Part shown: in pieces, positions 1-14,960 of the stretch
Position numbering within the stretch: position 1 is the first letter of the stretch
Layout of the letters: the number at the start of each line of letters is the position of its first letter
IMG/VR virus record: IMGVR_UViG_3300010211_000043
Location: 1 to 41,769 of that record
Reading direction: 5' to 3' (one strand)
Length of the DNA stretch: 41,769 nt
DNA from: a virus
The notes under the pieces: generated by a model
The model's input: only the letters and a program-made list of their open reading frames with translations
What the model was told of the DNA's origin: nothing
Databases searched by the model: none
Position numbers and translations under genes: made by a program

Positions 1-1278
1 ATGCGCGTTCAGAGAATCACCAAGAAGTCAACCCTCGACCCGCTGCGGAAGGAGCCGCCGGACAAGCGGTTGCTGATCTGGGAATCGGAAACCCGGGGGT
101 TCGGGGTCCGGGTGACCGAAACCGGCAAGGTAGCCTTTGTCTTCCAGTACCGTGATGCCACGGGCGCGAGTAAGCGGGTGACCATCGGTGAGTTCGGGCA
201 ACCCTGGACGGTGGATATGGCCCGTGACCGTGCGGTGGACATGCAACGCGCCGTGGCGGAGGGCCGGGACCCGAGGGAAGAGAAGAGAGAGGCACGGAAC
301 GCCCTCACCATCGGGCAGTTGGTAGACCTGTATCTGACCGAGGGACCGGCCGACCGCCCGAACAAAAAGCCTTCTTCCTGGAAACAGGACGTATCGAATC
401 TCCGCCGGCATGTGGTGCCCCTGCTGGGCACCCAGTCCGCCCGGACCCTGACCCGGGATCAGGTGGCGCACTGGCGCAACGACGTGGCCGCAGGCAAGAC
501 CGCGGCTGACGCCGTGGTCGGCCCCCGGTCCCGATCCATCGTCCGGGGTGGACAGGGCACGGCAGCGCGCGCGTTGGCCGCGTTCGGAGCCATGATGACA
601 TGGGCCGTCGAACGCAAGCTTGTGACCGAGAACCCCGTTCGGGGGGTGGAGACCTACAAGGGAAAGAAGAAGGACCGCTTCCTGTCCGAGTCGGAAGTCG
701 CTCGCTTGAACCGGGCCATGGTGTCCCTTGTTGACGACCTGGACATGCTCCGCCCTGCATCCGCAGATTGCTTTCGTCTTCTTATGCTAACCGGATGCCG
801 CAAGGAAGAGATTGCCTCCCTGCGGTGGGAGTACATTGACCTTGAGCGCGGACTCCTGAATCTGCCTGATAGCAAGACAGGCGCGAAGGTAGTGGTTTTG
901 GCGCTGCCTGCCGTGGAGATGCTGGCCGCGCTGCGGGCGCGGCGCACCGAAGCACCTTGGGTCTTTCCGGCCCGCCGGGGCGATGGGCCGATAGGTGGAC
1001 TCCAAAAGGATTGGGAGGTGGTCCGGGAATGGGCCGGGGTTGAGGGTGTGCGAATCCATGACCTCCGACACTCCTTAGCATCCTTCGCTGCCGCCGACGG
1101 CGCGTCCCTGCTGCTGATCGGCAAGACGCTGGGGCACCGCCGGGCGGAGACGACGCAACGCTACGCTCACCTTGCGGATGATCCCGTGCGCCAGGTCGCC
1201 AACGCCGCCGCCGGCCGAATTTCGCGCGCCCTCACTTCAAAATCGGGGGAACACGGGGAACACGGGGAACGGGATTGA
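1..1278 (+). CDS. int: Tyrosine recombinase (P4-type integrase)
   Basis: Site-specific recombinase that would insert and excise the element at an att site. The N-terminus (about 1-95) resembles the DUF4102 arm-binding domain, with a core-binding domain at about 100-215. The catalytic domain shows the full set of active-site residues: R267 in TGCRKEE, K292, H353-x-x-R356 in RIHDLRHS, H379 in LGH and nucleophile Y388. At 425 aa it has the usual length for the family. The last codons (SGEHGEHGERD) are written by a GGGGAACAC repeat, so the repeat array begins inside the gene. The open frame begins at base 1, so an earlier start cannot be excluded. As the first gene of a one-way array it marks the left side of the island, with attL expected upstream of the window. 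Confidence 0.93.
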   Translation: MRVQRITKKSTLDPLRKEPPDKRLLIWESETRGFGVRVTETGKVAFVFQYRDATGASKRVTIGEFGQPWTVDMARDRAVDMQRAVAEGRDPREEKREARNALTIGQLVDLYLTEGPADRPNKKPSSWKQDVSNLRRHVVPLLGTQSARTLTRDQVAHWRNDVAAGKTAADAVVGPRSRSIVRGGQGTAARALAAFGAMMTWAVERKLVTENPVRGVETYKGKKKDRFLSESEVARLNRAMVSLVDDLDMLRPASADCFRLLMLTGCRKEEIASLRWEYIDLERGLLNLPDSKTGAKVVVLALPAVEMLAALRARRTEAPWVFPARRGDGPIGGLQKDWEVVREWAGVEGVRIHDLRHSLASFAAADGASLLLIGKTLGHRRAETTQRYAHLADDPVRQVANAAAGRISRALTSKSGEHGEHGERD

Positions 1279-1339
1279 TTTGAAAGGGCTTTTCCTGTTC
1301 CCCCACCGAGGGAACGCGGGGGAACACGGGGAACAGGGG
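1245..1339. repeat. GGGGAACAC short repeats at the end of int
   Basis: The 9-bp unit GGGGAACAC is repeated in tandem at 1245-1270 and reappears as GGGGGAACACGGGGAACAGG at 1318-1337. The inverted copy CCTGTTCCCC (1294-1303) can pair with GGGGAACAGG (1328-1337). The cluster spans the integrase stop codon and the start of the following intergenic DNA. It could be arm sites for integrase or a regulator, an origin-like iteron set, or a weak terminator. No T-tract follows, so a terminator is the least likely. Confidence 0.6.
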
Positions 1340-1390
1340 CGGGACCGCCTCTCAGGCGGAAAAAACAACGCGGTTCCACACCGCGTAGTC

Positions 1391-1419
1391 TTGACACGGT
1401 ACGAGACCGCGCTTAGTGT
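1391..1419 (+). promoter_or_regulatory. Candidate sigma-70 promoter upstream of the second gene
   Basis: TTGACA (1391-1396), a 17-bp spacer, then TAGTGT (1414-1419). The -35 is perfect and the -10 is weak. The motif GCTTAGT occurs twice across the -10 (1411-1417 and 1420-1426), which could be an operator. A ribosome binding site (GGAGGA) at 1435-1440 precedes the ATG at 1448. This would be the main leftmost promoter of the island operon. Confidence 0.5.
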
Positions 1420-1447
1420 GCTTAGTACAAGCACGGAGGACGACCCT

Positions 1448-2161
1448 ATGAGCAATCCCCATATGACCGACGTGCAGGCCGCGAGCTACGATAACGCAGA
1501 CGTTGCGTTTGCGCTGGACCTGCACAATTTTCCCGAGTTCCGCAAGAATCTGGAGCGCATCGGCGCGACCAACATCCCTCGCATTGACGAAAACCCGGCC
1601 CGCCCCAAGTTCCGCCTTGGACATATCTATGACTACGCGCTGGTGTCCGAGTTTAGCAGGAGCATGAGCAAGGAACAGGCCGGGACTGTGGTTCGGGTCT
1701 TCTTATCCTTGATGCAGGGTCGAGCAGTCCGTCGCTTCAATGATCTTCCGGCCGAAGATCGCGAGGCAATTCACTACGACGGAAAGCGCCACGAGTACAT
1801 CGAAAACAACAGTGTAAAGGCGCCCATCGACAACGGTTGGTTCGCCGACTATCCGTGGCTCGCTTTTGACGCGGAGATCTTGGATCGCTCTGACGAACGC
1901 GCCGCAAAGCCCATTCTGTGGGTTGTTCCGGGTGACACTAATTTGGCTCGCAGCGCGAACGTGTCGCTGATCGGCCCCGACATCAACGTGCCCGCCGTGT
2001 GCGACGGACTGACCGAGATGGCCCGCAAGTTCTACACCGATGCCGACGTTGTTCCGCCCGTCAATTCGCTGGTCGTTATCAACGTGACGTCGCTTCTCAG
2101 CGAGGTTGACCGGCGCCTTGGGATGCGCCTTCGCGCGAAGCGTTTGCGCGGCGCCGAGTAG
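1448..2161 (+). CDS. Unrecognised island protein, 237 aa
   Basis: I do not recognise the family. The open frame runs back into int, but ATG 1448 is preferred because GGAGGA lies 7 bases upstream and a promoter lies before it. The N-terminal part (LDLHNFPEFRKNLERIGATN) is charged and helical and might be a small DNA-binding or recognition module. The middle is rich in acidic and aromatic residues, and the end (RRLGMRLRAKRLRGAE) is basic. No signal peptide or membrane segment is seen. It sits between the integrase and the AlpA-like regulator, where satellites usually carry regulatory or accessory genes, so an early regulatory role is possible but unproven. Confidence 0.7.
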   Translation: MSNPHMTDVQAASYDNADVAFALDLHNFPEFRKNLERIGATNIPRIDENPARPKFRLGHIYDYALVSEFSRSMSKEQAGTVVRVFLSLMQGRAVRRFNDLPAEDREAIHYDGKRHEYIENNSVKAPIDNGWFADYPWLAFDAEILDRSDERAAKPILWVVPGDTNLARSANVSLIGPDINVPAVCDGLTEMARKFYTDADVVPPVNSLVVINVTSLLSEVDRRLGMRLRAKRLRGAE

Positions 2162-2211
2162 GACCAGGCGCCCCCTTAGCGGGGCGCCGCCCCCTCTCCG
2201 GAGACTAATCC

Positions 2212-2493
2212 ATGACCACTCAGGCCAACGTGCCCCCTGGGGCGCGAACCCCCGAGCTTTGCCTTCCGGCTCCGCTCCGTAAGCCGCGCCTGCGCTCGGA
2301 CGAACTGTGCCAGTACCTGGAATTGGCGCATGGGATCGAACTCAAGCCGTCCACCTTGGCGACGTGGCGCTGCCGGGGCGGAGGCCCGCCGTTCGTGAAG
2401 TTCAACCGGACGCCGCTCTACCCGCGCGACTTGGCGGACACCTGGGCGAACGAAAAGCTCGGCGAGCCGATCACTAGCACTTCGGAGGGCTAG
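2212..2493 (+). CDS. AlpA-like helix-turn-helix regulator
   Basis: A 93-aa protein whose residues about 27-85 read as a MerR/excisionase-type winged HTH: a first helix LRSDELCQYLELA, a recognition helix around PSTLATWRCRGGGPPFVKF, and a wing ending in PLYPRDLADTWANE. The phrase GGPPFVKFNR followed by an R/Y position and L..W is typical of AlpA and phage excisionase HTH proteins. In Gram-negative PICIs, AlpA is the activator of the island genes. Start ATG 2212 has CGGAG about 8 bases upstream. The order after int and before primase matches the PICI plan. An excisionase role is also possible. Confidence 0.75.
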   Translation: MTTQANVPPGARTPELCLPAPLRKPRLRSDELCQYLELAHGIELKPSTLATWRCRGGGPPFVKFNRTPLYPRDLADTWANEKLGEPITSTSEG

Positions 2494-2496
2494 GCC

Positions 2497-2730
2497 ATGA
2501 TGAGTATCGAAGGTGGCACGTTTGTCTTCGCGCCCGAAGCTGATCCCGAACCGTTCGACCTGACCGACTACGAGACGCGCGCCTGGTTCTTCGCTGCCGG
2601 CCTTGACGCCTTCGAGCGGTGCCAGACCAATGGGATCGAGGGCCACGAGGTTCCTGCGATCCTGCGCAACCTGCACGACGCTGCCGGCTACATCGGCCGG
2701 ACTGTCGTCACAACACCGGGGCACGCATAG
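2497..2730 (+). CDS. Small acidic hypothetical protein, 77 aa
   Basis: Begins three bases after the HTH gene and ends two bases before the primase N-terminal gene, so it is translationally linked to both. The start has two ATG codons in a row (2497 and 2500). The protein is acidic at the front (PEADPEPFDLTDYETRAW) and helical at the back (HEVPAILRNLHDAAGYIGRTV). No cysteines that could bind metal and no membrane segment are present. Family not recognised; its place suggests a regulatory or replication-accessory role. Confidence 0.7.
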   Translation: MMSIEGGTFVFAPEADPEPFDLTDYETRAWFFAAGLDAFERCQTNGIEGHEVPAILRNLHDAAGYIGRTVVTTPGHA

Positions 2731-2732
2731 CC

Positions 2733-3038
2733 ATGCCCCGCGCCCCCCTGGACTTCGCCGCCATCAACCGCGCCGCCCTGTCCGCGCTGCCGGCCTTGCT
2801 GGCGCGCTGGTTGCCCGATGGCGCCCGCAACGGTGTCGAGTACGTCGCGCGGAATCCGCGTCGCTCCGACCGTCGGCCCGGATCGTTCAGCGTCAACATG
2901 CGCACCGGCCGTTGGGGCGATTTCGCCACCGGGGACAAGGGCGGGGACCCGATCAGTCTGGCCGCATACCTGCACGGAATGCGCCAAATCGAGGCCGCCC
3001 GGGCGCTGGCCGACATGTTGGGGGTTCGCCATGAGTAA
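2733..3038 (+). CDS. Primase N-terminal-like small protein
   Basis: 101 aa. The stretch PGSFSVNMRTGRWGDFATGDKGGDPISLAAYLHG (residues about 48-81) resembles the region that follows the zinc finger in phage and plasmid DnaG-type primases (a G.W.DF.....GD.i.L pattern), but the CHC2 cysteines are absent. The stop overlaps the next gene's start by 8 bases, so the two are probably coupled and act together as a split primase. ATG 2733 is chosen because it lies two bases after the previous stop; longer in-frame starts would overlap the upstream gene. Confidence 0.75.
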   Translation: MPRAPLDFAAINRAALSALPALLARWLPDGARNGVEYVARNPRRSDRRPGSFSVNMRTGRWGDFATGDKGGDPISLAAYLHGMRQIEAARALADMLGVRHE

Positions 3039-5556
3039 CAGCACCGCACGGGCGTTTGCCCCCCTGACCGACGAAGAGCACGCGACCGCGAACGATGCGC
3101 GACCGCCGAAGGGCGAAAAGACCCCGATCACTCCGGTTCCAGACGATGCGCCGAAGATGCGCTTCCGTCATCCGGCCTGGGGCGATCCCGTCGCCACATG
3201 GCCCTATCACGACGCCGACGGTCGCTTGATGGGGTTCGCCGCCCGGTTCGCGTTCGAGACCGACGGCCGGCCGGACAAGGACGTTCTGCCCCTCACCTTC
3301 TGCGACATCGGCAAGGGCAAGCGCGCATGGCGGGCCAAGAGCATCCCGGCACCGCGCCCGCTGTACCGCCTCCCTGATTTGGTGGCGCGTTCCGAGGCTC
3401 CGGTGTTGATCGTCGAGGGCGAAAAGACCGCCGAGGCCGCCGCGACCCTGTTCCCGGATATGGCGGTCACGACGCCGATGGGCGGGGGCAAGGCGCCGCA
3501 CCTCACCGACTGGTCCCCGCTGGAAGGCCGGCCGGTGATCATTTGGCCGGACCATGACGACCCGGGCGCCGACTCCGCCGCGCGCGTGGCTGAACTGGCG
3601 ATGGATGCCGGCGCCGCGTCGGTGCGCATCGTTCCTGTGCCCGCCGCCTTCCCGCCGAAGTGGGACTTGGCCGACCCGGGCGCCGACTCCGCCGCGCGCG
3701 TGGCTGAACTGGCGATGGATGCCGGCGCCGCGTCGGTGCGCATCGTTCCTGTGCCCGCCGCCTTCCCGCCGAAGTGGGACTTGGCCGATCCGGCACCGGA
3801 GGGTGCGGACCTGTTCGCGCTGCTGGCCGACGCCGCGCCCTGGGACCCGCCAACCGACGAAGGCGAAGATGCCCCGCCGGAAGTCGAACCAACCCGCCCG
3901 GGCTTCATGACCTATGACACCCGCACGCCCTACGGCCGGCCCGGGCTGTACTTTCACGGGTTCGGCAAAGGCGATCCGCCACCACCGACGGACACATGGG
4001 TGTGCTCGCCCATATGGGCCGACGCCATGACCGAGGGCGCCGACGGCCGCGACCATGGCCTGTTGCTGCGCTTCACCGACCCCAAGGGCCGGACGAAGGA
4101 ATGGGCCGCGCCCATGTCGCTGTTGGCCGGTGACGGGTCCGACCTGCGCCGGGAGCTTCTGGACCAGGGGGTTCGGATCGACATCCAGGCGGGCCGGACG
4201 TTGTTGCCGCGCTGGATCATGAGCCGGTTCCCCGAGCGGGAGGTGATGGCCGCGACCCGGACGGGCTGGTTGTCCGACCGTTCCGCCTACATTTTGCCTC
4301 ACCGTACCATCGGCGACGCGGAAGCGGTGTGGCAGGGCACCGACGCCCCCGGCACCGGCACCGCCGGCACCCTCGACGGCTGGAAGACCGAGGTGGCCGC
4401 GCGCGCCGTCGGTAATCCGCTGGCCGTGCTGGCTCTGTCCGCCGCGTTTGCGGGGCCGCTGCTGGCCCGCGTCCATCGACAAGGGGCCGGCCTGCATTTG
4501 GTCGGTGATTCCAGCACTGGCAAGTCAACGCTGCTGGATATGGCCGCGTCCGCCTGGGGCCACCCGCGCGACTTCGGCCGGTCATGGCGCACCACGTCCA
4601 ACGGCTTGGAGGCCGTGGCCGCCGCCCGGAACGACGGGCTCTTGATCCTGGACGAGATCAGCGAATGCGATCCGCGAGAGGTGGGCGCCGTGGTCTATGC
4701 GCTGGGCAATGGTGCGGGCAAGACCCGCGCGACCCGCTCCGGGGGTGCCCGCCCCGTGCATCGGTGGCGCGTCGTGGCGCTGTCATCGGGGGAACGCTCC
4801 ATCGCTGCCAGCATGGCGGAGGGTGGCCGGCACCAGAAGGCGGGGCAGTCCGCGCGCCTGTTGGACATCCGGTGCGATGGCCGGACGCATGGCGTCTTCG
4901 ACGTGCTGAACGGCGCCCCGGACGGTCGCACACTGTCCGACGCCCTGAAGACCGTGACCGAGGATCACCACGGGCACGCCGCGCCGGCCTTCATCGAAGC
5001 CCTGTTGGCCGACGGGCAGGACCATGGTGCGCTGTTGGCCGACCTTCGGGCCGAACCGGGCTTCGCGGCCGGAGCCGAATTGGAAGGCCGGGCCGCGTCC
5101 ATGCTCGCCCTGATCGCCATGGCTGGCGAGTTGGCGCGGGATTACGGAATCGTACCCTGGCCGGAGGGCGCCGCCTTGGACGCTGCGACGTTGGCCTTCG
5201 GCCTGTGGTGGGAAGGCCGGACGGAAGGGCGCCCGGAAGACGAACAGATTCTCGATGCGGTGCGGGAGTTCATCAACCGCCACGGTGACACCCGGTTCTC
5301 GGTGGTGAGCGAGACCGACACCATCCAGACCCGCGAACGCGCCGGCTGGTGGCGGGATGACCATCAGGGCCGCCGGACGTACCTGTTCACGTCCGATGCC
5401 CTGAAGGAAGCGGTGGCCGGACACGACCTGACCCGCGCCCTCGACGCACTGGATCGGGCCGAGTGGATCGCGGATCGGGACCAGGGCAAGCGGTCGAAGA
5501 AAATCCGCGTCCCGGGGCGTCCGGTCAATGTCTACGCGATCCGGCCGGAGGGATGA
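3031..5556 (+). CDS. Toprim-DUF927 primase/helicase fusion
   Basis: 841 aa replication protein. Residues about 120-215 form a Toprim-like fold: VLIVEGEKTAEAA supplies the catalytic glutamate (E129) and VIIWPDHDDPG supplies the D-x-D pair (D174, D176). The DUF927 region (about 305-700) is a superfamily-III-like helicase with Walker A GDSSTGKST (492-500) and Walker B GLLILDEI (about 536-543). The C-terminus may be a small winged helix. It would start and drive replication of the excised element. A perfect 38-residue repeat (about 177-214 and 215-252) follows the D-x-D motif directly; the repeated segment is normally single copy, so this allele may be altered or inactive. ATG 3031 overlaps the upstream gene by 8 bases. 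Confidence 0.88.
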   Translation: MSNSTARAFAPLTDEEHATANDARPPKGEKTPITPVPDDAPKMRFRHPAWGDPVATWPYHDADGRLMGFAARFAFETDGRPDKDVLPLTFCDIGKGKRAWRAKSIPAPRPLYRLPDLVARSEAPVLIVEGEKTAEAAATLFPDMAVTTPMGGGKAPHLTDWSPLEGRPVIIWPDHDDPGADSAARVAELAMDAGAASVRIVPVPAAFPPKWDLADPGADSAARVAELAMDAGAASVRIVPVPAAFPPKWDLADPAPEGADLFALLADAAPWDPPTDEGEDAPPEVEPTRPGFMTYDTRTPYGRPGLYFHGFGKGDPPPPTDTWVCSPIWADAMTEGADGRDHGLLLRFTDPKGRTKEWAAPMSLLAGDGSDLRRELLDQGVRIDIQAGRTLLPRWIMSRFPEREVMAATRTGWLSDRSAYILPHRTIGDAEAVWQGTDAPGTGTAGTLDGWKTEVAARAVGNPLAVLALSAAFAGPLLARVHRQGAGLHLVGDSSTGKSTLLDMAASAWGHPRDFGRSWRTTSNGLEAVAAARNDGLLILDEISECDPREVGAVVYALGNGAGKTRATRSGGARPVHRWRVVALSSGERSIAASMAEGGRHQKAGQSARLLDIRCDGRTHGVFDVLNGAPDGRTLSDALKTVTEDHHGHAAPAFIEALLADGQDHGALLADLRAEPGFAAGAELEGRAASMLALIAMAGELARDYGIVPWPEGAALDAATLAFGLWWEGRTEGRPEDEQILDAVREFINRHGDTRFSVVSETDTIQTRERAGWWRDDHQGRRTYLFTSDALKEAVAGHDLTRALDALDRAEWIADRDQGKRSKKIRVPGRPVNVYAIRPEG
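3558..3785 (+). repeat. Perfect 114-bp in-frame tandem duplication
   Basis: Bases 3558-3671 and 3672-3785 are identical, and three more matching bases follow (3786-3788). The period of 114 bp is 38 codons, so the reading frame is kept. The copies begin right after the Toprim D-x-D codons. The complete identity points to a very recent event or strong homogenisation. Confidence 0.97.
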
Positions 5557-5559
5557 CCG

Positions 5560-5739
5560 ATGGCCCTGGCCCAACTGCTGGCCCGGCGCCGGGCGGAACG
5601 CGAAGAGGCCGTGGTTGACGCCCTCGCCGCCGACCTGCTGGCCCGCGCGGATCGGGCGTTCGCGGTGCTGAATCACATTGCCCAGCACGGACACGACGAT
5701 GGTTCGGAGCCGTGCGTCTCGCCGGACCCGCCCCCATGA
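5560..5739 (+). CDS. Small helical hypothetical protein, 59 aa
   Basis: Starts four bases after the primase stop and ends in an ATGA overlap with the next gene. The sequence MALAQLLARRRAEREEAVVD is strongly helical and charged, followed by LAADLLARADRAFAVLNHIAQHG. No known family. The tight coupling on both sides and consistent codon use support a real gene. It may help replication or regulation. Confidence 0.65.
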   Translation: MALAQLLARRRAEREEAVVDALAADLLARADRAFAVLNHIAQHGHDDGSEPCVSPDPPP

Positions 5740-5963
5740 CCGCCCGCCTGATCGTGACCCAGGACCGCCCCGGGGCACCGCTGGTTCTGTCCGTCTATCG
5801 CCCCGACACACCCGAGCCCGCCGCCGTAGTGCCACTGACCGCGACCCGGGCCGTCGCGCTTGCCGCCGACCTGTTGGCGCTGGCGCGGCATGAGCTTCCC
5901 TTGGGGCTGAAAAGTAAAGGCCGTCAACAGTCGTCACCGCAAATCAAAGAACAGCAAACTTAA
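5736..5963 (+). CDS. Small hypothetical protein, 75 aa
   Basis: ATG 5736 overlaps the previous stop (ATGA). The front (MTARLIVTQDRPGAPLVLSVYRPD) looks like beta strands and the middle (TATRAVALAADLLALARHEL) like a helix. The last 20 residues are polar and encoded by AT-richer DNA (GRQQSSPQIKEQQT). Family not recognised. It is the last gene before the only clear gap in the operon, so it closes the early (replication) module. Confidence 0.65.
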   Translation: MTARLIVTQDRPGAPLVLSVYRPDTPEPAAVVPLTATRAVALAADLLALARHELPLGLKSKGRQQSSPQIKEQQT

Positions 5964-6041
5964 CTTCACGCGCGCGCGAACCAGTACTTGTTCTATGGTT
6001 CTTTTCTGTCCACCATGCCTATGGCTGGACAGGACAAGGCG
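5964..6041 (+). promoter_or_regulatory. Gap before the head module, with inverted repeat
   Basis: The only sizeable non-coding gap between replication and head genes. GAACCA (5978-5983) and TGGTTC (5996-6001) form a 6-bp inverted repeat with a 12-base spacer. AT-rich stretches (TACTTGTTCTATGG, TTCTTTTCTG) could hold a promoter, but no clean -35/-10 pair is visible. A late-module promoter or operator is a reasonable inference. Confidence 0.35.
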
Positions 6042-7241
6042 ATGTCTTTCATTCGACGCATCTTCGGTTTGGAAACTCGGTCGGGTTCGTTCGGCGAACT
6101 CGAGGCGCTGTTGCGCGAGGCCCACGAGACCGCCGCCGGCATTGCCGTTTCATCCGACGCCGCGCTGGAATACGCCCCTGTCCTGGGCGCCGTCCGGGCG
6201 ATTTCCGAAAGCGTCGGGATGCTCCCGTGCCATGTGTACCGCCGGAGCGGGGACGACCGGCGCCGCGCCGATGACCATCCCCTTGAAAAGCTGCTGTCCC
6301 GTCTGCCCTGCCCCTGGACGACCGCGTACCAGTTCAAGACCGACATGACCGCCGCCCTGATCCTGGACGGTCAGGCGTTCGCGCATGTGGCCCGCGCATC
6401 GGATGGTCGGGTTCTCGAGGTGGTGCCGCTGCCCCGCAAATCGGTGACGGTCGAGACCGATCCCCAGACCCTCGAGCCGCGCTACCGCCTGAGCCTGTCG
6501 GACGGCACTCACCGCGACCTTGACCGGACGGAGGTGTTCCACCTGCGGGGCCTGGGCATCCAGCCGAACACCGGCCTGTCCCTGATCCACGCCGGCCGGC
6601 ATGCCATCGGGCTTGGCATCGCCCTTGAGCGCCACGCGAGCCGTATCATGGCGCGCGGCGCCCGGCCGTCCGGTGTCGTCACCGCGCCGGAGGGGGTGAA
6701 GGGCGATGTTCTGGAACGCCTGAAGCTGTCCTTGCAACGGTTCCATGCGGGCGAGAATGCCGGCGGAACCCTGCTGTTGGAGGGCAAGGGCGCGTCGTTC
6801 ACACCCCTGACGTTCAACGCGGTGGACAGTCAGTTTCAGGAAATGCGGACGTTCCAGGTGGCGGAGGTGTCGCGCATCCTTCGCGTGCCGCTGTCGCTGC
6901 TGTCGGAAATGTCGCGGGTGACGCACGCCAACGCCGAAAGCCTGGGCCGGCAATTCCTCAGCCTGACCTTGCTTCCCTACCTGCGGCTTTGGGTCGAGAC
7001 CATCTACCGCGACCTTCTGACCGAAGACGAGCGCGAGGACCTGTACGCCGAACACACGACCGGCGCCCTGGAAATGGCCGACCTGGGGAGCCGCATTGAC
7101 GCCTACGTCAAGGCCATCGCGGGCGGGCTGATGGAGCCTGACGAAGCCCGCGCCCGCGAGAACCTGCCCGCGCGCGGTGGCGAGGCCGCGAAGCTGCGTT
7201 TCCCCATGAACACCGAGACGGGAGGCGCGACCGATGCCTGA
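6042..7241 (+). CDS. HK97-family portal protein
   Basis: 399 aa, the normal size for HK97-like portals. The family is recognised from its overall pattern: MSFIRRIFG start, SSDAALEYAPVLGAVRAISESVGMLPCHVYRR, then HPLEKLLSRLPCPWTTAYQFK and FQEMRTFQVAEVSRILRVPLSLLSEMSRVTHANAE near the C-terminal third. It would form the 12-subunit ring through which DNA enters the head. ATG 6042 fits the family start; a longer frame (from 5988) adds residues that do not look native. It overlaps the protease-capsid gene by 8 bases. Confidence 0.93.
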   Translation: MSFIRRIFGLETRSGSFGELEALLREAHETAAGIAVSSDAALEYAPVLGAVRAISESVGMLPCHVYRRSGDDRRRADDHPLEKLLSRLPCPWTTAYQFKTDMTAALILDGQAFAHVARASDGRVLEVVPLPRKSVTVETDPQTLEPRYRLSLSDGTHRDLDRTEVFHLRGLGIQPNTGLSLIHAGRHAIGLGIALERHASRIMARGARPSGVVTAPEGVKGDVLERLKLSLQRFHAGENAGGTLLLEGKGASFTPLTFNAVDSQFQEMRTFQVAEVSRILRVPLSLLSEMSRVTHANAESLGRQFLSLTLLPYLRLWVETIYRDLLTEDEREDLYAEHTTGALEMADLGSRIDAYVKAIAGGLMEPDEARARENLPARGGEAAKLRFPMNTETGGATDA

Positions 7242-8871
7242 TATCGAACTGCGCTTCGCCCCCACCCTGGGCGCCGAGGGGACCTTTCGGGGCCTCGCTT
7301 CGGCCTATGGCGTGTTGGATCAGCACGGCACCGCGTTCGGCCCCGGCGCCTTCTCCGCCTCCCTGGCCGAAACTCGCGCCGACGCCCGGAAAATCCCGCT
7401 GCTGCTGCACCACGACGCAACCCGGGTCTGTGGCGTGGTGGAGACCCTGACCGACACGCCCGCCGGGCTGGAGATCGAGGGCCGTTTTGTTCTCGATACC
7501 CGCGACGGCGCCGAGGCGCACGCCCTGGCAAAGGCCGGTGCCCTGGCCCTGTCCGTGGGCTTCAAGCGGGTGCGGGATCAGCCGCGCGCCGGGGGAGGCC
7601 GCACCATCACCACCGCCCGTCTGGCCGAGGTGTCCTGCGTGGCCGTGGCCAGCAACCCCAAAACCCGGATCACCGAAGTCCGGTCCACCGCCGCCCGCGC
7701 GGCGCAACAGAAGGAGTCCACCATGGACGCCAACACCGAGACCGCGCCGGAGACCCGGGCGGAGGATATCGAAACCACCGAGACCCGGGGCGACGATGCC
7801 CTGGAAACCCGTATGTCCGAGGTGACCAGCACCCTGACCGAGATCCGCACTGCCGTTGATGGCATGGGCCGCCGCCTGGATCGCGTCGAGGCCCGCGCCG
7901 GCCGCGCCGGGGTCACTGCTGCCCCCGCCTCCGAGGGCCAGGCCATCGAAACCCGCGCCTTCGATACCTTCATCCGCCGGGGCCGCGAGGCTCTGGGCGC
8001 CGAGGAAATCCGGTCCCTGCGAGTGGCCGACGACACCAGCGGCGGGTACCTGACCACGCCGGACTTCCGCGCCGACCTGCTGAAGGGGCTTCAGGAGATC
8101 AGCCCGATCCGCCGTCTGGCCGCCGTGACCAGCACCAGCGCGGGCGAGATCGTGCTTCCCAAGCTGACCGGCCGTCCGACCGCCGCGTGGGTCACCGAGA
8201 CCGGCGCCCGTACCGGCACCGAACCCGCGTTCGGTCAGGTGCGCATCCCGGTTCACGAGGCCAGCGTCTACGTGGACGTGTCCACCCAGCTTCTGGAAGA
8301 CGCAGCGATCAACGTGTCCGCCGAACTGTCCACCATGCTCGCGACGGAATACGCCCGCCTGGAAGGGGTGGCGTTCCTGTCGGGCGACGGTACCGGCAAG
8401 CCCTCGGGCATCCTGACCAGTGCCGATCTGGTGACGATGGCCAACGGGTCCACCACCGTCCTGTCGGCGGACGCCCTGATCGGCCTTCTGTACAGCCTGA
8501 AGCCGACCTACCGGGCGCGCGCAACCTGGATCATGAACCCGAGCACCATCGCCACCGTGCGCAAACTGAAGGCCAGTGACGGCCACTACCTCTGGCAGGA
8601 CAGCCTTGCCGCCGGGCAGCCGGCGACGATCTTGGGCTTCCCGGTGGCCGAAGCCGCCGACATGCCGGAGATCGCCAGCGGCGCCGTTCCGGTCCTGTTC
8701 GGGGACTGGAAGACGGCCTATCGCGTCGTCACCCGCACGGGCGTTTCGATCCTGCGCGACCCCTACACCCAGGCCACCAACGGCTTGACCCGCTTTCATT
8801 CGCGGATGCGCGTGGGGGGCGCCCTGACCATGCCCGAGGCCATCACCGGCCTGAAGATGGTAACGAGCTAA
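7234..8871 (+). CDS. Prohead protease fused to HK97-type major capsid
   Basis: 545 aa that combine two proteins usually encoded apart. Residues 1-163 match the S78/HK97 prohead protease, with histidines in LLLHHD (H59/H60), serine in ALSVGFK (S107) and glutamate in LAEVSCV (E132). Residues from about 164 are an HK97 capsid: a delta-domain-like helical stretch (TRMSEVTSTLTEIRTAVDG), then DDTSGGYLTTPDFRADLLKGLQE and a standard coat core to the end. An internal ATG at 7723 with AAGGAG seven bases upstream would give a free 382-aa capsid protein, so both forms may be made. The protease would cut the scaffold during maturation. Confidence 0.92.
   Translation: MPDIELRFAPTLGAEGTFRGLASAYGVLDQHGTAFGPGAFSASLAETRADARKIPLLLHHDATRVCGVVETLTDTPAGLEIEGRFVLDTRDGAEAHALAKAGALALSVGFKRVRDQPRAGGGRTITTARLAEVSCVAVASNPKTRITEVRSTAARAAQQKESTMDANTETAPETRAEDIETTETRGDDALETRMSEVTSTLTEIRTAVDGMGRRLDRVEARAGRAGVTAAPASEGQAIETRAFDTFIRRGREALGAEEIRSLRVADDTSGGYLTTPDFRADLLKGLQEISPIRRLAAVTSTSAGEIVLPKLTGRPTAAWVTETGARTGTEPAFGQVRIPVHEASVYVDVSTQLLEDAAINVSAELSTMLATEYARLEGVAFLSGDGTGKPSGILTSADLVTMANGSTTVLSADALIGLLYSLKPTYRARATWIMNPSTIATVRKLKASDGHYLWQDSLAAGQPATILGFPVAEAADMPEIASGAVPVLFGDWKTAYRVVTRTGVSILRDPYTQATNGLTRFHSRMRVGGALTMPEAITGLKMVTS
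7711..7725 (+). promoter_or_regulatory. Internal ribosome binding site and start inside the capsid fusion
   Basis: AAGGAG at 7711-7716 followed by ATG at 7723, in frame with the fusion. It lies exactly at the protease/capsid boundary, where a separate capsid gene would start. This is better than most starts in the window and suggests nested production of unfused capsid protein. Confidence 0.6.
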
Positions 8872-8919
8872 GGGAGGAGCGGCGGAGACCGCCCGCCGGT
8901 TGCCGCATAGCGAGACACT

Positions 8920-9051
8920 CGCTCCGGGACGGAGCGGGAACAGGGGCCGACCAACGGGACGTTGCGGCCCTGACCGACGCCATCCATCGGGATGATGGGG
9001 TGTCGGTGCCCTGGCCAGGGTGCGGCGGAGGGATCCAGCCCCCTCCGCCGC
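8920..9051 (+). other. Intergenic hairpins after the capsid gene
   Basis: The 207-bp gap between capsid and HNH holds two strong stems. CGCTCCG (8920-8926) pairs with CGGAGCG (8930-8936) around a 3-base loop. GCGGCGGAGGG (9022-9032) pairs with CCCTCCGCCGC (9041-9051) around 8 bases. Neither is followed by a T-tract, so they are not textbook terminators. They may limit read-through after the most-needed protein or protect the mRNA end. Confidence 0.5.
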
Positions 9052-9078
9052 CTTGGCATAGATGGAGACGAACACGCC

Positions 9079-9402
9079 ATGCCGACCCGTCCGCCCCGCG
9101 TTTGCCCACGGTGCCGCCGGCCTGTGCCTGCGGGGCAGCGGTGCGATTGCACGCCACGCCCCACGGACCCGCGTCCGTCAGCGCATCGGCGGGGCTATGG
9201 GGTGAACTGGCGCCGACTGCGGGCGAACCTGATGCCCGAGGGTACGCGCTGTGTGCGCTGTGGTGCCCCGGCTGAACACCTGGATCACATCCGCCCGAAG
9301 CGGCTGGGCGGGACCGATGATCCGAGCAACCTGCAACCCCTGTGCGGGCGCTGTCACCGCAGTTGGAAACAGGCCATGGAGGCCCGCCATGCTGACCGTT
9401 GA
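9079..9402 (+). CDS. HNH endonuclease, terminase-associated
   Basis: 107 aa. Cysteine pairs CPRC (N-terminus) and CVRC / CGRC (around the core) bind structural zinc, and the HNH core is EHLDHIRPKRLGGTDDPSNLQPLCGRCHRSWK, with the first catalytic His in LDH, the Asn in SNLQPL and the last His in CHRSW. HNH proteins of this type sit next to terminase genes in cos-packaging HK97-like phages and are needed for terminal cutting. Start ATG 9079 follows GGAGACG. It overlaps the connector gene by 14 bases. Confidence 0.9.
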   Translation: MPTRPPRVCPRCRRPVPAGQRCDCTPRPTDPRPSAHRRGYGVNWRRLRANLMPEGTRCVRCGAPAEHLDHIRPKRLGGTDDPSNLQPLCGRCHRSWKQAMEARHADR

Positions 9403-9967
9403 GACCGCCCCGGACACCGATCTTGTGACCCTGGCCGACGCCAAGGCCGCGCTGGGCATCACCGGCACGGCGGATGATGAGTGGCTTGGCGCCCTGATCG
9501 CCCGGGCGAGCGCGGCTGTCGTGGCGTTCGTCGGCTGGCCGATCCTCGAAGGCCGCTACGCCGAGACCATCGAAACGGATGGCCGAACCCACACCATCCT
9601 GTTGAGCCGCTTCCCGATCATCACCGTGACCGGCCTTGCCCTGGACGGTGAGGACATCACGGCGGACATCGAATGGAAAGTGCAAGCTGGTGGCGGGCTG
9701 ACCCTCTGGCAAAACCACCGCGCCACCCCCTGGCCCTGCGGTGCCCTGGTGGTGACCTACGCCGCCGGGCACACCACCGCGCCGGCCGACATCCAGGCCG
9801 CAACCCTCGAGCTTGTCCGCCAGTGGTCCGACCGGACCCGCGACCCGAACGTCAAGTCCACCAGCTACGCCGACAGCACCAGCGTTTCCTACGTGGTCAA
9901 CCCCGCCGGCCTGCCCGCCGCCGTGCGCGACCTGCTGACCCCGCACCGCCTGCCCGGGATCGGATGA
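9389..9967 (+). CDS. gp6-like head-tail connector
   Basis: 192 aa. The start LVTLADAKAALGITGTADDEWLGALIARASAAVVAFVGWPI and the later TAPADIQAATLELVRQWSDRTRDPNVKSTSYADSTSVSYV follow the pattern of the HK97 gp6 (QLRG/YqbG-type) connector family. The protein would form the ring below the portal that closes the filled head. It overlaps HNH by 14 bases and is followed by a small membrane protein gene. Confidence 0.88.
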   Translation: MLTVETAPDTDLVTLADAKAALGITGTADDEWLGALIARASAAVVAFVGWPILEGRYAETIETDGRTHTILLSRFPIITVTGLALDGEDITADIEWKVQAGGGLTLWQNHRATPWPCGALVVTYAAGHTTAPADIQAATLELVRQWSDRTRDPNVKSTSYADSTSVSYVVNPAGLPAAVRDLLTPHRLPGIG

Positions 9968-9968
9968 C

Positions 9969-10169
9969 ATGGACCGCCTGCGACACGCCGACGCCGTGAC
10001 GGTACCAGCCCTGGTGTCGTCGCCTGCCTGGGTGCCGCTGCTGGAACACCTGAACTTGGTTCTGACCGCCCTTAGTCTGGGCATCGGGTTGGTGATCGGC
10101 CTGTTGCGTGTCTATGCGCTGATCCGCGCCTTGCGGGGGCGCCACACGTCCGGGAACGGCGAGCCATGA
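9969..10169 (+). CDS. Small single-pass membrane protein
   Basis: 66 aa with one hydrophobic helix (about 27-53, LNLVLTALSLGIGLVIGLLRVYALI) and a basic C-terminus (RALRGRH). Starts two bases after the connector stop. No close family recognised. A holin-like role is possible, but the element lacks a partner endolysin. A membrane-acting interference or accessory role is equally open. Confidence 0.6.
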   Translation: MDRLRHADAVTVPALVSSPAWVPLLEHLNLVLTALSLGIGLVIGLLRVYALIRALRGRHTSGNGEP

Positions 10170-10272
10170 GGACCCCACCCCCGGGGGCGGGTCGAGAATT
10201 TCGGTCGAAGGGGTCCGGGACCGGCTGGGGGGTCACGTGCGAGATGGGCCGGAAATTGGAGGTTTTGCAGCC
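10170..10272 (+). promoter_or_regulatory. GC-rich gap before terS, possible cos region
   Basis: This 103-bp gap has a near-perfect hairpin (10171-10193, GACCC..GGGTC outside a CCCCC/GGGGG core) and a second G-rich stretch (GGGGTCCGGGACCGGCTGGGG). A ribosome binding site GGAGG (10258-10262) precedes terS. In cos-type phages with an HNH gene, the cos site commonly lies just before terS, so this is the best place to look for it. No cohesive-end sequence can be proven here. Confidence 0.35.
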
Positions 10273-10683
10273 ATGAAGGGCCGGAAGCCGAACCTGTCGG
10301 TGGTCGAGGGCGGGAAATCCGCCGGCCGGGCACCGCCGCCGCCGTCCTGGATGGCCGATCACGCGAAGGCCGAATGGAAGCGGGTCGCGCCGGAGCTTCA
10401 CCGCCGGGGCCTGCTGACCGCCGAGGCCCGGGCCACCCTGGAAAGCTACTGCATCGCCGTCGGCACCGTTCGCGAGACCGAGGAAACCTTGATCCGGGAA
10501 GGTCGCACGGTCGAGGGCGAACGCGGCCCGGCCGTTCATCCGGCCTTCAAGGTGCAACAGGGGGCCATGCGCGAGGCCCGGCTTTTGGGCTCCGAACTGG
10601 CGTTGACGCCGCACCGCCAAGCCCTGCGAGGAAAGACCGATGACGACGCCAGCGACGGATGGGGCGACCTGGTGGACGGCTGA
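10273..10683 (+). CDS. terS: Terminase small subunit, P27 family
   Basis: 136 aa. The start MKGRKPNLSVVEGG followed by PPPPSWMADHAKAEWKRVAPELHRRGLLTAEARATLESYCIAVGTVRETEE is the P27/TerS_4 pattern. It recognises the packaging site and hands DNA to TerL. ATG 10273 is chosen because GGAGG lies 10 bases upstream; an upstream in-frame start at 10237 adds unlike residues. It overlaps terL by 44 bases, a common arrangement. Confidence 0.9.
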   Translation: MKGRKPNLSVVEGGKSAGRAPPPPSWMADHAKAEWKRVAPELHRRGLLTAEARATLESYCIAVGTVRETEETLIREGRTVEGERGPAVHPAFKVQQGAMREARLLGSELALTPHRQALRGKTDDDASDGWGDLVDG

Positions 10684-12310
10684 CCAATGCCGCCCCGCCT
10701 GGCTGTTCGATGACAGCCCGATCCCGGACCCTCATGGGAAGGGCGCCCGGGCCGTGGCGTTCGTGGAACGCCTGACCATCACCGAGGGACCGCGCGCCGG
10801 GCAACGCCTGGGGAAGGTCTTGGCACCCTGGCAACGGCGCCTGATCCAGCGCGTCTATGGGGACACCCTGCCGGACGGTCGGCGCCGCTTCTCCGACGTG
10901 GCCGTGTGGCTCCCCAGGGGCAACGGCAAAACCACGCTGATTGCCGCGCTGGGGCTGTTGCACCTGCTGGGGCCGGAACGCGACGCCGCCGGGCAAGTGG
11001 TGGTCGCGGCCGCCGACCGGGGGCAAGCGTCCATCGGCTTCGGGCACGCGAAGCGGTACGTCGAGGCCGACCGCACCCTGTCCCGGATCGTTCGCGCAGT
11101 GGAATCCCAGAAGGAGTTGCACCACGGCAAATCCGGGTCCGTGCTGAAGGCCATTTCCCATGAGAGCTACACCAAGCACGGGCTCAACATCTCCCTGCTG
11201 ATCGGGGACGAAATCCACGCATGGCCGGCGCATTCGGGCCGCGAACTCTGGCGCGTGCTGCGGACCAGCATGGGCAAGCGGGCCGATCCCCTGACCATCA
11301 CCATTTCGACCGCTGGCGTGGGCCGGAACACGCTCGCCTGGGATCGCTGGCAGCATTCCCACGCGGTGGCGAAGGGCGAGCGCGACGACGAGTCCTTTTT
11401 ACCGGTGATCTTTGCCGCCCCGGACCCGCCCGAGGGCGAAGACCTTCCCTGGCAGGACGAAGCCCTGTGGCACGCGCTCAATCCAGCCTTGGGCGCGTTC
11501 CTGTACCTGGACGAACTGCGCAAACTGGCGCGTCAGGCCGCGCCGCTGCCCCACGAGGTGGAAGGCTGGCAACAACTGCACCTGAACCGCTGGATTGACG
11601 GCAGCGTGGCCGGGTGGGTGGCGATGACGTCATGGGATCGCGGGTCCGACCCTGTGGACCTGGACGCGCTCGAGGGCCGCTCGGCCTGGATCGGCGTTGA
11701 CCTGTCCAGCACCACCGACTTGACGGCCGTGGTGCTGGCCCTGCCCGACGATGACGGCGGGGTGGACGTGGTGCCGTTCTGCGTCGTCCCGGCCGACACC
11801 ATGCGCCGCCGGGCGGAGGTGGACGGGGTGCCGTATCCCACATGGGCGGACACCGGCCTTCTGACCGCGACCCCGGGCAATGTGGTGGATTACGGCGCCG
11901 TCGAAGCCTGCATCATCGACCTGTGCGAACGGTTCGACGTCCGAGAAGTCGCCATGGACCAGTGGAACGCCACGGGCTCCATCACCCGCCTGCAAGAGGC
12001 CGGGGTTCCGGTGACCACCCACCGTCAGGGCTTCGTGTCCATGAGCCCGCCCATGAAGGACACGGAACGGCTGATCCTGTCCGGCAAGCTGCGCCACGGC
12101 GGACACCCGGTGTTGCGCTGGTGCGTGGGCAATGTGGTCCCGGACAAGGACCCGGCCGGCAACATCAAGCCGTCCAAGGCCCGGGCGAAGGAGCGAATCG
12201 ACGCCGCAACCGCGCTCATCATGGCCGTGGGCCGCGCCGTGGCCGGCGAAGGCGCGCGTTCGATCTACAACGACGAATCCGCCCGCCCGGACGGCTTCCT
12301 GATCCTGTAG
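10640..12310 (+). CDS. terL: Terminase large subunit, HK97 type
   Basis: 556 aa packaging motor. ATPase domain: Walker A LPRGNGKTT (91-99), Walker B SLLIGDE (about 185-191, catalytic E191). Nuclease domain: IGVDLSSTTDLT with D354 and D360, and a later acidic residue in ERIDAATALI. Length and motif spacing fit the Terminase_1 family. It would pump the element's DNA into its own heads. Presence of both TerS and TerL means the element does not need the helper's packaging enzyme. The 44-base overlap with terS supports coupled translation. Confidence 0.95.
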   Translation: MTTPATDGATWWTADQCRPAWLFDDSPIPDPHGKGARAVAFVERLTITEGPRAGQRLGKVLAPWQRRLIQRVYGDTLPDGRRRFSDVAVWLPRGNGKTTLIAALGLLHLLGPERDAAGQVVVAAADRGQASIGFGHAKRYVEADRTLSRIVRAVESQKELHHGKSGSVLKAISHESYTKHGLNISLLIGDEIHAWPAHSGRELWRVLRTSMGKRADPLTITISTAGVGRNTLAWDRWQHSHAVAKGERDDESFLPVIFAAPDPPEGEDLPWQDEALWHALNPALGAFLYLDELRKLARQAAPLPHEVEGWQQLHLNRWIDGSVAGWVAMTSWDRGSDPVDLDALEGRSAWIGVDLSSTTDLTAVVLALPDDDGGVDVVPFCVVPADTMRRRAEVDGVPYPTWADTGLLTATPGNVVDYGAVEACIIDLCERFDVREVAMDQWNATGSITRLQEAGVPVTTHRQGFVSMSPPMKDTERLILSGKLRHGGHPVLRWCVGNVVPDKDPAGNIKPSKARAKERIDAATALIMAVGRAVAGEGARSIYNDESARPDGFLIL

Positions 12311-12319
12311 GGGGTGACG

Positions 12320-13162
12320 ATGACACCGGACCTGAAGACGCCCTTCCGCCTGCTGGGACAGGCCGCCGTGTACAGCCCGACCGCCGGCGCCCCGGTGGCG
12401 TGCCAAGCCATGCCCGTTGGCGGAGGGCAGGTGTTCACCGTGGGCCGCGTCCAGTTCACGGCCGAGCGGCCGTTGTTCCACGTTCGCAGGGCGGAGGTGT
12501 CACCTGCTGCCGGTGGCGTGCTGACGGTGGATGGCACCGCGCACCCTGTCCAGGCCGTCGAGCCCGTCGAGGGCGATCCCCGTGGGCTTCTGTGGCAGGT
12601 GGTGCCCGCTTGGGGCGCGCTGTTCGATTGGACCACCCCGGGCAGCGGCGGGGGCAGTCCTTACGATCCCGTCGGGGACACCGTGACGCTGACGGCGCGG
12701 GCCGCGAGCGCGGGGGCAACCACTGTGACGCTGGTTGCGTCCACCTGGACATCCGGGCGCGTCCGCGACGGTGACACGCTCACGATCGAGGGCACGGATT
12801 ACACTGTCACGGGCGACGTGCCCTTGAGCCTGGATGGTCAGTCGTATGTGTTCGCCAACGTGCCGATCACACCGGGCCTGAGCGCGGCCCTGAGCGGTGG
12901 CGAATCCGTGACCTACCTTCCGGCCGGGGGCAGCAACGCGCGCCTCGTGCGGGCCGCCGTGGCGGACTACGAGGCCAGCGAGATCATGGCCGGAATCCTG
13001 ACCGGCGACCGCCGGCTTGTCGTGCGGGCCGGCGATATCAACCCAGCGCCCACCACCAGCGACACGGTGGAGATCGACGGCACCGACTGGTCCGTCGTTT
13101 CGGTCGAGGCCATTCATGTCGGCGCCGACGTGGTGGCGTGGGTGTGCCAATTAAGGCGATGA
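12320..13162 (+). CDS. Head-tail adaptor, probable fusion of two joining domains
   Basis: 280 aa. The front (about 5-95, FRLLGQAAVYSP...VGRVQFTAERPLFHVRRAEV...LTVDGTAHPVQ) resembles lambda FII-type head-tail joining proteins. The back (about 205-280, YEASEIMAGILTGDRRLVVRAGDI...DTVEIDGTDWSVVSVEAI) resembles the HK97 gp10-type joining proteins. A middle beta-rich section (VTLTARAASAGATTVTLVAS) links them. These proteins form the end of the head onto which a tail docks. It is the last gene of the element; no tail gene follows, so the tail must come from elsewhere. A GTG at 12314 is an alternative start. Confidence 0.75.
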   Translation: MTPDLKTPFRLLGQAAVYSPTAGAPVACQAMPVGGGQVFTVGRVQFTAERPLFHVRRAEVSPAAGGVLTVDGTAHPVQAVEPVEGDPRGLLWQVVPAWGALFDWTTPGSGGGSPYDPVGDTVTLTARAASAGATTVTLVASTWTSGRVRDGDTLTIEGTDYTVTGDVPLSLDGQSYVFANVPITPGLSAALSGGESVTYLPAGGSNARLVRAAVADYEASEIMAGILTGDRRLVVRAGDINPAPTTSDTVEIDGTDWSVVSVEAIHVGADVVAWVCQLRR

Positions 13163-13186
13163 CCGTTGAAATAATACCGCCTTGCG

Positions 13187-13215
13187 TTGACAATAGATGC
13201 ACCGAGAATTATTAA
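13187..13215 (+). promoter_or_regulatory. Candidate promoter pointing toward the defence locus (antisense)
   Basis: TTGACA (13187-13192), 17-bp spacer, TATTAA (13210-13215). A transcript would start near 13221, run first through the 13224-13251 hairpin and then antisense to the small ORF and the deaminase gene. It may be a short hairpin RNA or an antisense regulator. Only sequence similarity supports it. Confidence 0.4.
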
Positions 13216-13223
13216 TAAAAAAT

Positions 13224-13251
13224 TTCGCCCCTAGAGTGAACTAGGGGCGAA
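13224..13251 (-). terminator. Strong intrinsic terminator of the defence operon
   Basis: TTCGCCCCTAG (13224-13234) pairs perfectly with CTAGGGGCGAA (13241-13251) around the loop AGTGAA. On the minus strand it is followed by ATTTTTTATT, a clean T-tract, so it ends transcription coming from the deaminase and the small ORF. On the plus strand only TTT follows, so it would be weak in that direction. Confidence 0.85.
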
Positions 13252-13315
13252 TTTAGAATACCTTTCGGTGCCAAGAGCTAAATTTTTCACTCCTCGGCGC
13301 CACGCGGAGATGAAA

Positions 13316-13483
13316 TCAAGTAGCCATAGCGGTATTCTTGTTTCTGATCACCGAAGAAAACTCAGAGCTATATGACTCTTTTCTTCTTATATTGCGAAGT
13401 ATAATTTCCTTTTTCCAGGTTTCTAGTTTTTCGAACTTCTCCTTTTCCCTCTCGATTCTTCTGAGAATTTCGGAATCCTGCAT
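13316..13483 (-). CDS. Small lysine/glutamate-rich protein downstream of the deaminase
   Basis: 55 aa, starting five bases after the deaminase stop, with CAGGAG placed inside the last deaminase codons. The sequence MQDSEILRRIEREKEKFEKL and onward is highly charged and probably a coiled coil; the end is polar. The AT-rich codon use matches the deaminase gene and not the neighbours. A terminator follows about 65 bases downstream. Not a family I recognise. The position suggests a partner or modulator of the deaminase, but this is inference. Confidence 0.6.
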   Translation of the reverse strand: MQDSEILRRIEREKEKFEKLETWKKEIILRNIRRKESYSSEFSSVIRNKNTAMAT

Positions 13484-13488
13484 GTCCC

Positions 13489-14877: not shown

Positions 14878-14894
14878 TTCAGCGATGACGTCAC

Positions 14895-14960
14895 TGTGTG
14901 ACTAGGCATGAGGTATGAGACAACCGGGATACGGTGGGATTGACCGGAATATATTGGGAT
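14895..14960. repeat. Mu-like left end with 20-bp spaced repeats
   Basis: Two copies of ACCGGRATAYRKTGGGAT lie at 14923-14940 and 14943-14960 (14 of 18 positions identical, 20-bp period). The hexamer TGAGAC recurs at about 14916, 14996 and 15039. Transposable phages carry such repeats at their ends as transposase binding sites. The proposed terminal bases are TGTGTGACTAGG from 14895. Confidence 0.6.

Follow-up and report, generated by a model that had tools for sequence, protein, structure and literature searches.

Gene content of the window

The DNA considered here, referred to as the window, is the whole of IMG/VR virus record IMGVR_UViG_3300010211_000043 (41,769 nucleotides). Its first base is that of the ATG of an integrase gene (int), and positions 1-14896 hold a candidate capsid-forming phage satellite, interrupted on its right by a Mu-like prophage. 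The features are as follows.

1-1278, plus strand: tyrosine integrase (Pfam Arm-DNA-bind_3, 1.8e-19, and Phage_integrase, 3.7e-15; 93 % identical to that of the related element L085)
1246-1327, plus strand: cluster of GGGGAACAC-type repeats directly 3′ of int
1448-2161, plus strand: open reading frame (ORF) without Pfam, PHROGs or PADLOC match
2212-2493, plus strand: helix-turn-helix protein of the AlpA/recombination directionality factor (RDF) type, excisionase or regulator by its family profile
2497-2730, plus strand: small ORF without match in Pfam or PHROGs
2733-3038, plus strand: small ORF 5′ of the primase gene, counterpart of L003 6321-6638
3031-5556, plus strand: DUF927 primase-helicase (PF06048, 6.9e-79; PHROG DNA primase, 2.1e-75)
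6021-7241, plus strand: portal protein, HK97 type (PF04860, Phage_portal, 6.3e-80; portal tree)
7234-8871, plus strand: prohead protease-major capsid fusion of 545 aa (PF04586, Peptidase_S78, and PF05065, Phage_capsid, in a single ORF)
9079-9402, plus strand: HNH endonuclease (PF01844, 4.9e-11)
9389-9967, plus strand: head-tail adaptor Ad1/HCP, part 1 of adaptor cassette II (PF24163/PF05135, Phage_connect_1/HCP; phrog_442, 2.8e-33)
9969-10169, plus strand: small protein, apparently with a membrane helix, for which no counterpart was found
10273-10683, plus strand: small terminase, TerS (PF05119, Terminase_4, 1.2e-20)
10640-12310, plus strand: large terminase, TerL, ATPase and nuclease (PF20441, 3.6e-51; PF03354, 1.4e-21)
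12320-13162, plus strand: two-part FII-type head-tail stopper, part 2 of adaptor cassette II (PF05354, Phage_attach, 3.3e-20)
13489-14896, minus strand: dCTP-deaminase anti-phage gene, cargo, its 5′ end lost to the Mu-like insertion (PADLOC dCTPase, 3.9e-140)
14897-41769, plus strand: Mu-like prophage with Mu portal and contractile tail, beyond the stretch 1-13162 and outside the satellite

All genes assigned by Pfam and PHROGs within 1-13162 lie on the plus strand, and none belongs to a tail, baseplate, tape-measure or lysis family, three ORFs remaining without assignment. This agrees with the sequence-only reading of the same DNA, which had described an integrase, a primase and a complete set of head and packaging genes on one strand, with no tail or lysis gene. 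Its AlpA-like regulator is likewise borne out, since the family profile of the helix-turn-helix protein matches RdfS, a recombination directionality factor (7e-7), and HTH_17 is matched by three of eight homologues; the assignment comes from these and not from the window protein alone, which as a single sequence has no Pfam or PHROGs match. No Stl repressor was identified in the window element. The ORF at 2733-3038 probably encodes the N-terminal part of the primase. Residues 210-280 of the stopper match phrog_161 (head closure Hc1) in PHROGs, and TerL has about 1,500 distant matches among phages, which are uninformative.

We note that the primase gene contains an in-frame tandem duplication of about 40 codons (3554-3760), apparently present as a single copy in L003 and L002. 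An inverted counterpart of the GGGGAACAC-type repeats adjoins the right attachment site (attR) in L003 (18567-18645), L085 (17738-17825) and L143 (12924-13010), and these repeats are possibly replication or regulatory sites.

Tail genes might be concealed among the three unassigned ORFs (1448-2161, 2497-2730 and 9969-10169), which would make this an autonomous phage, and podovirus genomes of about 15-20 kb exist. This is nevertheless very unlikely: the ORFs encode products of 66-238 aa that are without counterpart in near-identical elements, neither the tail module nor the lysis genes expected of an autonomous temperate siphophage were found, and the stopper is of the FII type, which in lambda joins long non-contractile tails.

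Relatives integrated at tRNA genes

Seven relatives that share the head module lie between direct repeats at the 3′ ends of tRNA genes and are 14.6-18.4 kb long, and no tail gene was found in any of them. One of them, L085 of Roseospira visakhapatnamensis JA131, is about 90 % identical to the window and occupies 14,568 bp between 48-bp repeats of tRNA-Ala(CGC), with host genes flanking both ends. L003 has 15,226 bp between 35-bp repeats of the tRNA-Ala(CGC) 3′ end, L009 and L010 lie at tRNA-Arg (15,656 and 15,022 bp), L089 of Vineibacter terrae at tRNA-Glu (18,399 bp), L087 of a member of the Xanthobacteraceae at tRNA-Asn (17,935 bp) and L098 of Aureimonas at tRNA-Met (15.95 kb, 44-bp repeat). 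In a congener of R. visakhapatnamensis (G061) the element measures about 14.9 kb, and its 26-bp repeat lies close to tRNA-Asn/Cys. In the R. visakhapatnamensis genome a 33-bp att core is present in two copies only, one at each element end; five congeners have one or two copies per genome, never two on one contig, as expected for tRNA-Ala genes without the element. The sequence-only reading had proposed that comparison with relatives would reveal att repeats and element limits, and these tRNA-derived repeats answer to that proposal.

The head genes persist across these relatives while integrases and sites differ. A portal tree of 59 rows places the window in a clade of 10 (Shimodaira-Hasegawa-like approximate likelihood ratio test, SH-aLRT, 85), itself nested in a clade of 40 (99) composed of Alphaproteobacteria and viral contigs without assignment, and separates the window clade from the sampled phages. 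No tail gene was detected in any of the 10 members with seed proteins and phmmer, a heuristic that misses divergent tails, and absence carries no information in short contigs such as L008. Complete prophages combining the same head module with a tail, named earlier as the case that would speak against a satellite, were not found.

Such an element might be the defective remnant of a siphophage that has lost its tail and lysis modules. The head module has a phage-like order, and distant relatives retain tape-measure or tail-tube genes, so that past tail loss may have occurred. Ten comparisons by the NG86 method, however, give ratios of non-synonymous to synonymous substitution (dN/dS) of 0.09-0.32, indicating purifying selection on the genes, which speaks against decay. 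There are no tail remnants beyond the stopper, independent elements occupy several tRNA sites with exact att repeats and host genes outside, and the portal clade has no member with a detected tail gene; a decayed prophage is thus unlikely.

We conclude that positions 1-14896 of the window very probably constitute most of a capsid-forming phage satellite of the Rhodospirillaceae, of the type of the capsid-forming phage-inducible chromosomal islands (cf-PICIs), a reading first put forward from the sequence and supported by the tail-less, att-bounded relatives. Comparison of the sequences establishes its predicted framework: a terminal integrase gene, a full HK97-type set for head building and packaging, and tRNA-integrated relatives with exact att repeats.

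Element limits and the Mu-like prophage

In L003 and L085 the left attachment site (attL) lies about 0.2 kb upstream of int, which corresponds to a position left of the window start. A search of the window with the L003/L085 att sequence gave no repeat, which is explained by the start of the record at int and the displacement of attR by the Mu-like phage. On the right, the element runs past 13162 into the deaminase gene. The metagenomic relative L143 matches the window from the stopper through the minus-strand deaminase gene (94.7 %), which is full length there (511 aa), and ends in a tRNA-Ala att sequence (attR). The match breaks at 14896, in the 5′ part of the deaminase gene, and Mu-like sequence starts at 14897.

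The Mu-like prophage encodes a MuA transposase, a MuB-like AAA protein, a Mu portal, MuF, baseplate J and P2 I proteins and its own terminase. The simplest reading of this one junction is that a Mu-like phage inserted into the defence cargo of the satellite and is nested in the element. The earlier delimitation of the element as 1-13162 thus holds for its gene set and fails for its limits; the head-tail adaptor is not the last gene, since the deaminase cargo gene follows it, and the Mu-like phage, previously taken for a neighbour, appears from the 14896/14897 junction to lie within the element. As the insert is at least 27 kb long, the DNA from att to att would exceed 40 kb, and packaging into a head for about 15 kb is unlikely. 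The window copy, its cargo disrupted and its attR moved away by the Mu-like phage, is therefore probably not packageable.

A single virus record joins the head genes to the Mu-like phage, as if both formed one composite prophage. This can practically be dismissed: the Mu-like phage brings a terminase, a portal and a MuF of its own, relatives carry the element without it, and the point within the deaminase gene at which similarity to L143 ends coincides exactly with the start of Mu-like sequence.

Adaptor cassettes and the stopper

Identity between the window element and L085 is 93 % in int, 86 % in the primase, 90 % in the portal, 89 % in the capsid, 96 % in TerS and 95 % in TerL and, with the helix-turn-helix protein included, spans 80-96 %. 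Neither the Ad1 nor the stopper of the window is matched in L085; encoded there in their place are a Phage_HCP protein and another, different protein of the Ad1 type, a pair also present in L164 and L009. These gene comparisons show the head-tail adaptor as a predicted exchangeable cassette, consisting either of Ad1 and an FII-type stopper or of an unrelated pair, and near-identical elements could therefore change tail type.

The stopper also occurs on other heads. It is 57 % identical to that of a second R. visakhapatnamensis element, G004:C30 (L125, L126, L127), whose portal, capsid and TerL are 31-37 % identical to those of the window, and 73 % identical to that of L142, whose remaining matches to the window element are only Int (29 %) and TerL (25 %). 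Homologues at 37-47 % are found in lambda-like tailed phages, where no other gene of the element was matched. A search with the whole stopper against 50,697 phages gave matches to C-terminal fragments only, and helper candidates were therefore sought in IMG/VR and host genomes.

G004:C30 encodes head genes, with BREX genes nearby and an endolysin-like and an Rz-like gene; it was our first helper candidate in R. visakhapatnamensis and was rejected as a second head-encoding element in which no tail genes were seen. L142 is a short contig (11.2 kb) that combines an integrase with a head of another type and has the stopper at its end; it is a further candidate satellite.

For the stopper, modelled with AlphaFold (pLDDT 80.5), the three best fold matches are the lambda neck chains 8xow_f and 8k37_M and the stopper of the marine siphophage vB_DshS-R4C; probability is 1.0 for each, with E-values of 0.016-0.036 that make the match supportive and not conclusive. 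The last of these, from a phage with an alphaproteobacterial host, could be cited in favour of a gene transfer agent (GTA) or other domesticated head cluster serving the host, as GTAs occur in Alphaproteobacteria. GTA clusters are, however, vertically inherited and encode their own tails, whereas here mobility is evident from the integrase, the RDF-like protein, the primase and the att repeats, and from tRNA sites that vary between hosts; such an origin is extremely unlikely.

A lambda-like siphoprophage of R. visakhapatnamensis, G004:C32 (L172/L173), has a stopper homologue at its head-tail junction (47 % identity over 94 % of the length). Its genes specify a lambda portal, gpE capsid, stopper, tail terminator and tail tube, then a tape-measure-like protein and further products; besides the stopper, no gene in common with the window element was found. 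The helper is likely to be of this lambda-type siphophage kind, in keeping with the earlier suggestion of a siphophage other than the Mu-like phage, now backed by stopper homologues in lambda-like tailed phages, including this one.

Taking these observations together, we lean somewhat towards a broader picture in which the adaptor serves as a plug that can be exchanged. In related hosts, satellites whose heads are unrelated would converge on the FII-type stopper family that they have in common with a local lambda-like prophage, near-identical satellites would carry non-homologous pairs, a cassette swap would amount to a change of helper tail, and the wider clade would be graded from head-only members to those with a tape measure and on to those with most of a tail shaft. 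We found no prior description of this adaptor-cassette pattern in the open-access literature.

The wider group

Among relatives with a portal identity of 35-41 %, several have genes for a tape measure or a tail tube. One att-bounded element, in Frigidibacter oleivorans (L095 5227 to L132, reverse complement, 3059), is about 15.5 kb long with a 46-bp tRNA-Pro repeat; its genes specify the head, the neck and, of the tail, the terminator, the tube and the tape measure, and none for a tail tip or fibre was seen. In further Alphaproteobacteria (L086/L128, L088/L129, L091/L130, L099, L101/L133 and L102/L134) a tape-measure gene lies near TerL with host genes shortly beyond, and several of these have short tRNA-derived end repeats. 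The tape-measure gene was dropped as a novelty, since tmp genes have already been reported in cf-PICIs (PMC12987554, Extended Data Fig. 10). The same head module is also found on complete circular plasmids of Roseomonas mucosa and Paracoccus marcusii (L188 and L189; 16.9 and 17.5 kb), which are possible alphaproteobacterial satellite-plasmids; no tail gene was seen in the former, and in the latter a tape-measure-like gene apparently spans the record start.

Proposed life cycle

We propose that during growth of a helper phage the element would excise and replicate by means of its own primase, and that its TerS, TerL and HNH endonuclease would package its DNA into its own heads. The portal would be closed by Ad1 and the FII-type stopper, the latter being the plug onto which the helper's tail, of the lambda siphophage type, would fit. 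Lysis would be supplied by the helper, and the deaminase would serve as defence cargo.

Several points weigh against this account of the element as a tail-borrowing satellite. Its induction, particles and helper tails are predictions from sequence, and its own attL and attR both lie outside the window. The three ORFs that lack an assigned role could have a hidden function. The candidate helper resides in R. visakhapatnamensis, which is not the window's host, and the 90 % relative in that species has the other adaptor type. A comparison with 73 genomes of the family did not reveal the host of the window, the best TerL match being 95 %. The tape-measure and tail-tube genes at 35-41 % portal identity mean that the head-only state is not universal in the wider group. 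The cf-PICI assignment, finally, is by gene content, att-bounded relatives and summary descriptions in the literature.

Comparison with known satellites

As summarized in PMC10690885 and PMC10803314, the cf-PICIs of Alqurainy et al. (2023) have their own capsid, protease, portal, connectors, TerS/TerL, HNH endonuclease and integrase and no tails, and the average size quoted there, 14 kb, is near that of the window element. The latter has a capsid, maturation protease, portal and head-tail connectors of its own, together with its own TerS, TerL and HNH endonuclease; tail, baseplate, tape-measure and lysis genes are absent by Pfam and PHROGs, apart from the three unassigned ORFs. Regulation or excision and replication are represented by the RDF/HTH_17-type protein and the DUF927 primase. 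Chromosomal integration between att repeats, expected of cf-PICIs at about 12-18 kb, is seen in relatives, the window itself having int and an attR inferred from L143. Relative to the cf-PICIs as summarized, it differs in its protease-capsid fusion, in a stopper encoded after TerL and in the two interchangeable adaptor cassettes of its group. Alphaproteobacteria are not among the usual hosts given in PMC10803314, and a statement in PMC10690885 has cf-PICIs widely distributed across Bacteria; alphaproteobacterial members may already be among those published.

The satellite-plasmids of Vibrio termed cf-PISPs (PMC13230959) have the same functional set without a tail and a PF05065 capsid, but depend on plasmid maintenance without a PICI-type integrase, whereas the window element belongs to the integrated ones, with an integrase and, in relatives, chromosomal att sites. 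MulchRoom and MiniFlayer of Streptomyces (PMC10690885) also have a full capsid and packaging set, with a helper tail in the case of MulchRoom; they differ in their virulent helpers and terminal repeats, and according to the authors have no significant homology to cf-PICIs. The PICI-like elements (PLEs) of Vibrio cholerae with chimeric tails (PMC12987554) resemble our element in that a satellite adapts tail assembly, which bears on the tape-measure-carrying relatives, but PLEs take helper capsids, whereas the window element encodes its head itself and lacks tail genes. The R. visakhapatnamensis siphoprophage differs from it in having a lambda-type head and its own tail genes.

Implications

These findings extend tail-stealing satellites, as predicted here, to the Rhodospirillaceae and further Alphaproteobacteria, and members bounded by att sites are available in genomes that are named or can be retrieved. 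Elements about 90 % identical that differ in their adaptor cassette offer a natural experiment on tail choice, and one adaptor family is found on unrelated heads and on a candidate helper. Since the differences can be confined to the cassette and the adaptor family is held in common, how a satellite head selects a foreign tail should be testable in a non-pathogenic purple non-sulphur bacterium by swapping one or two genes.
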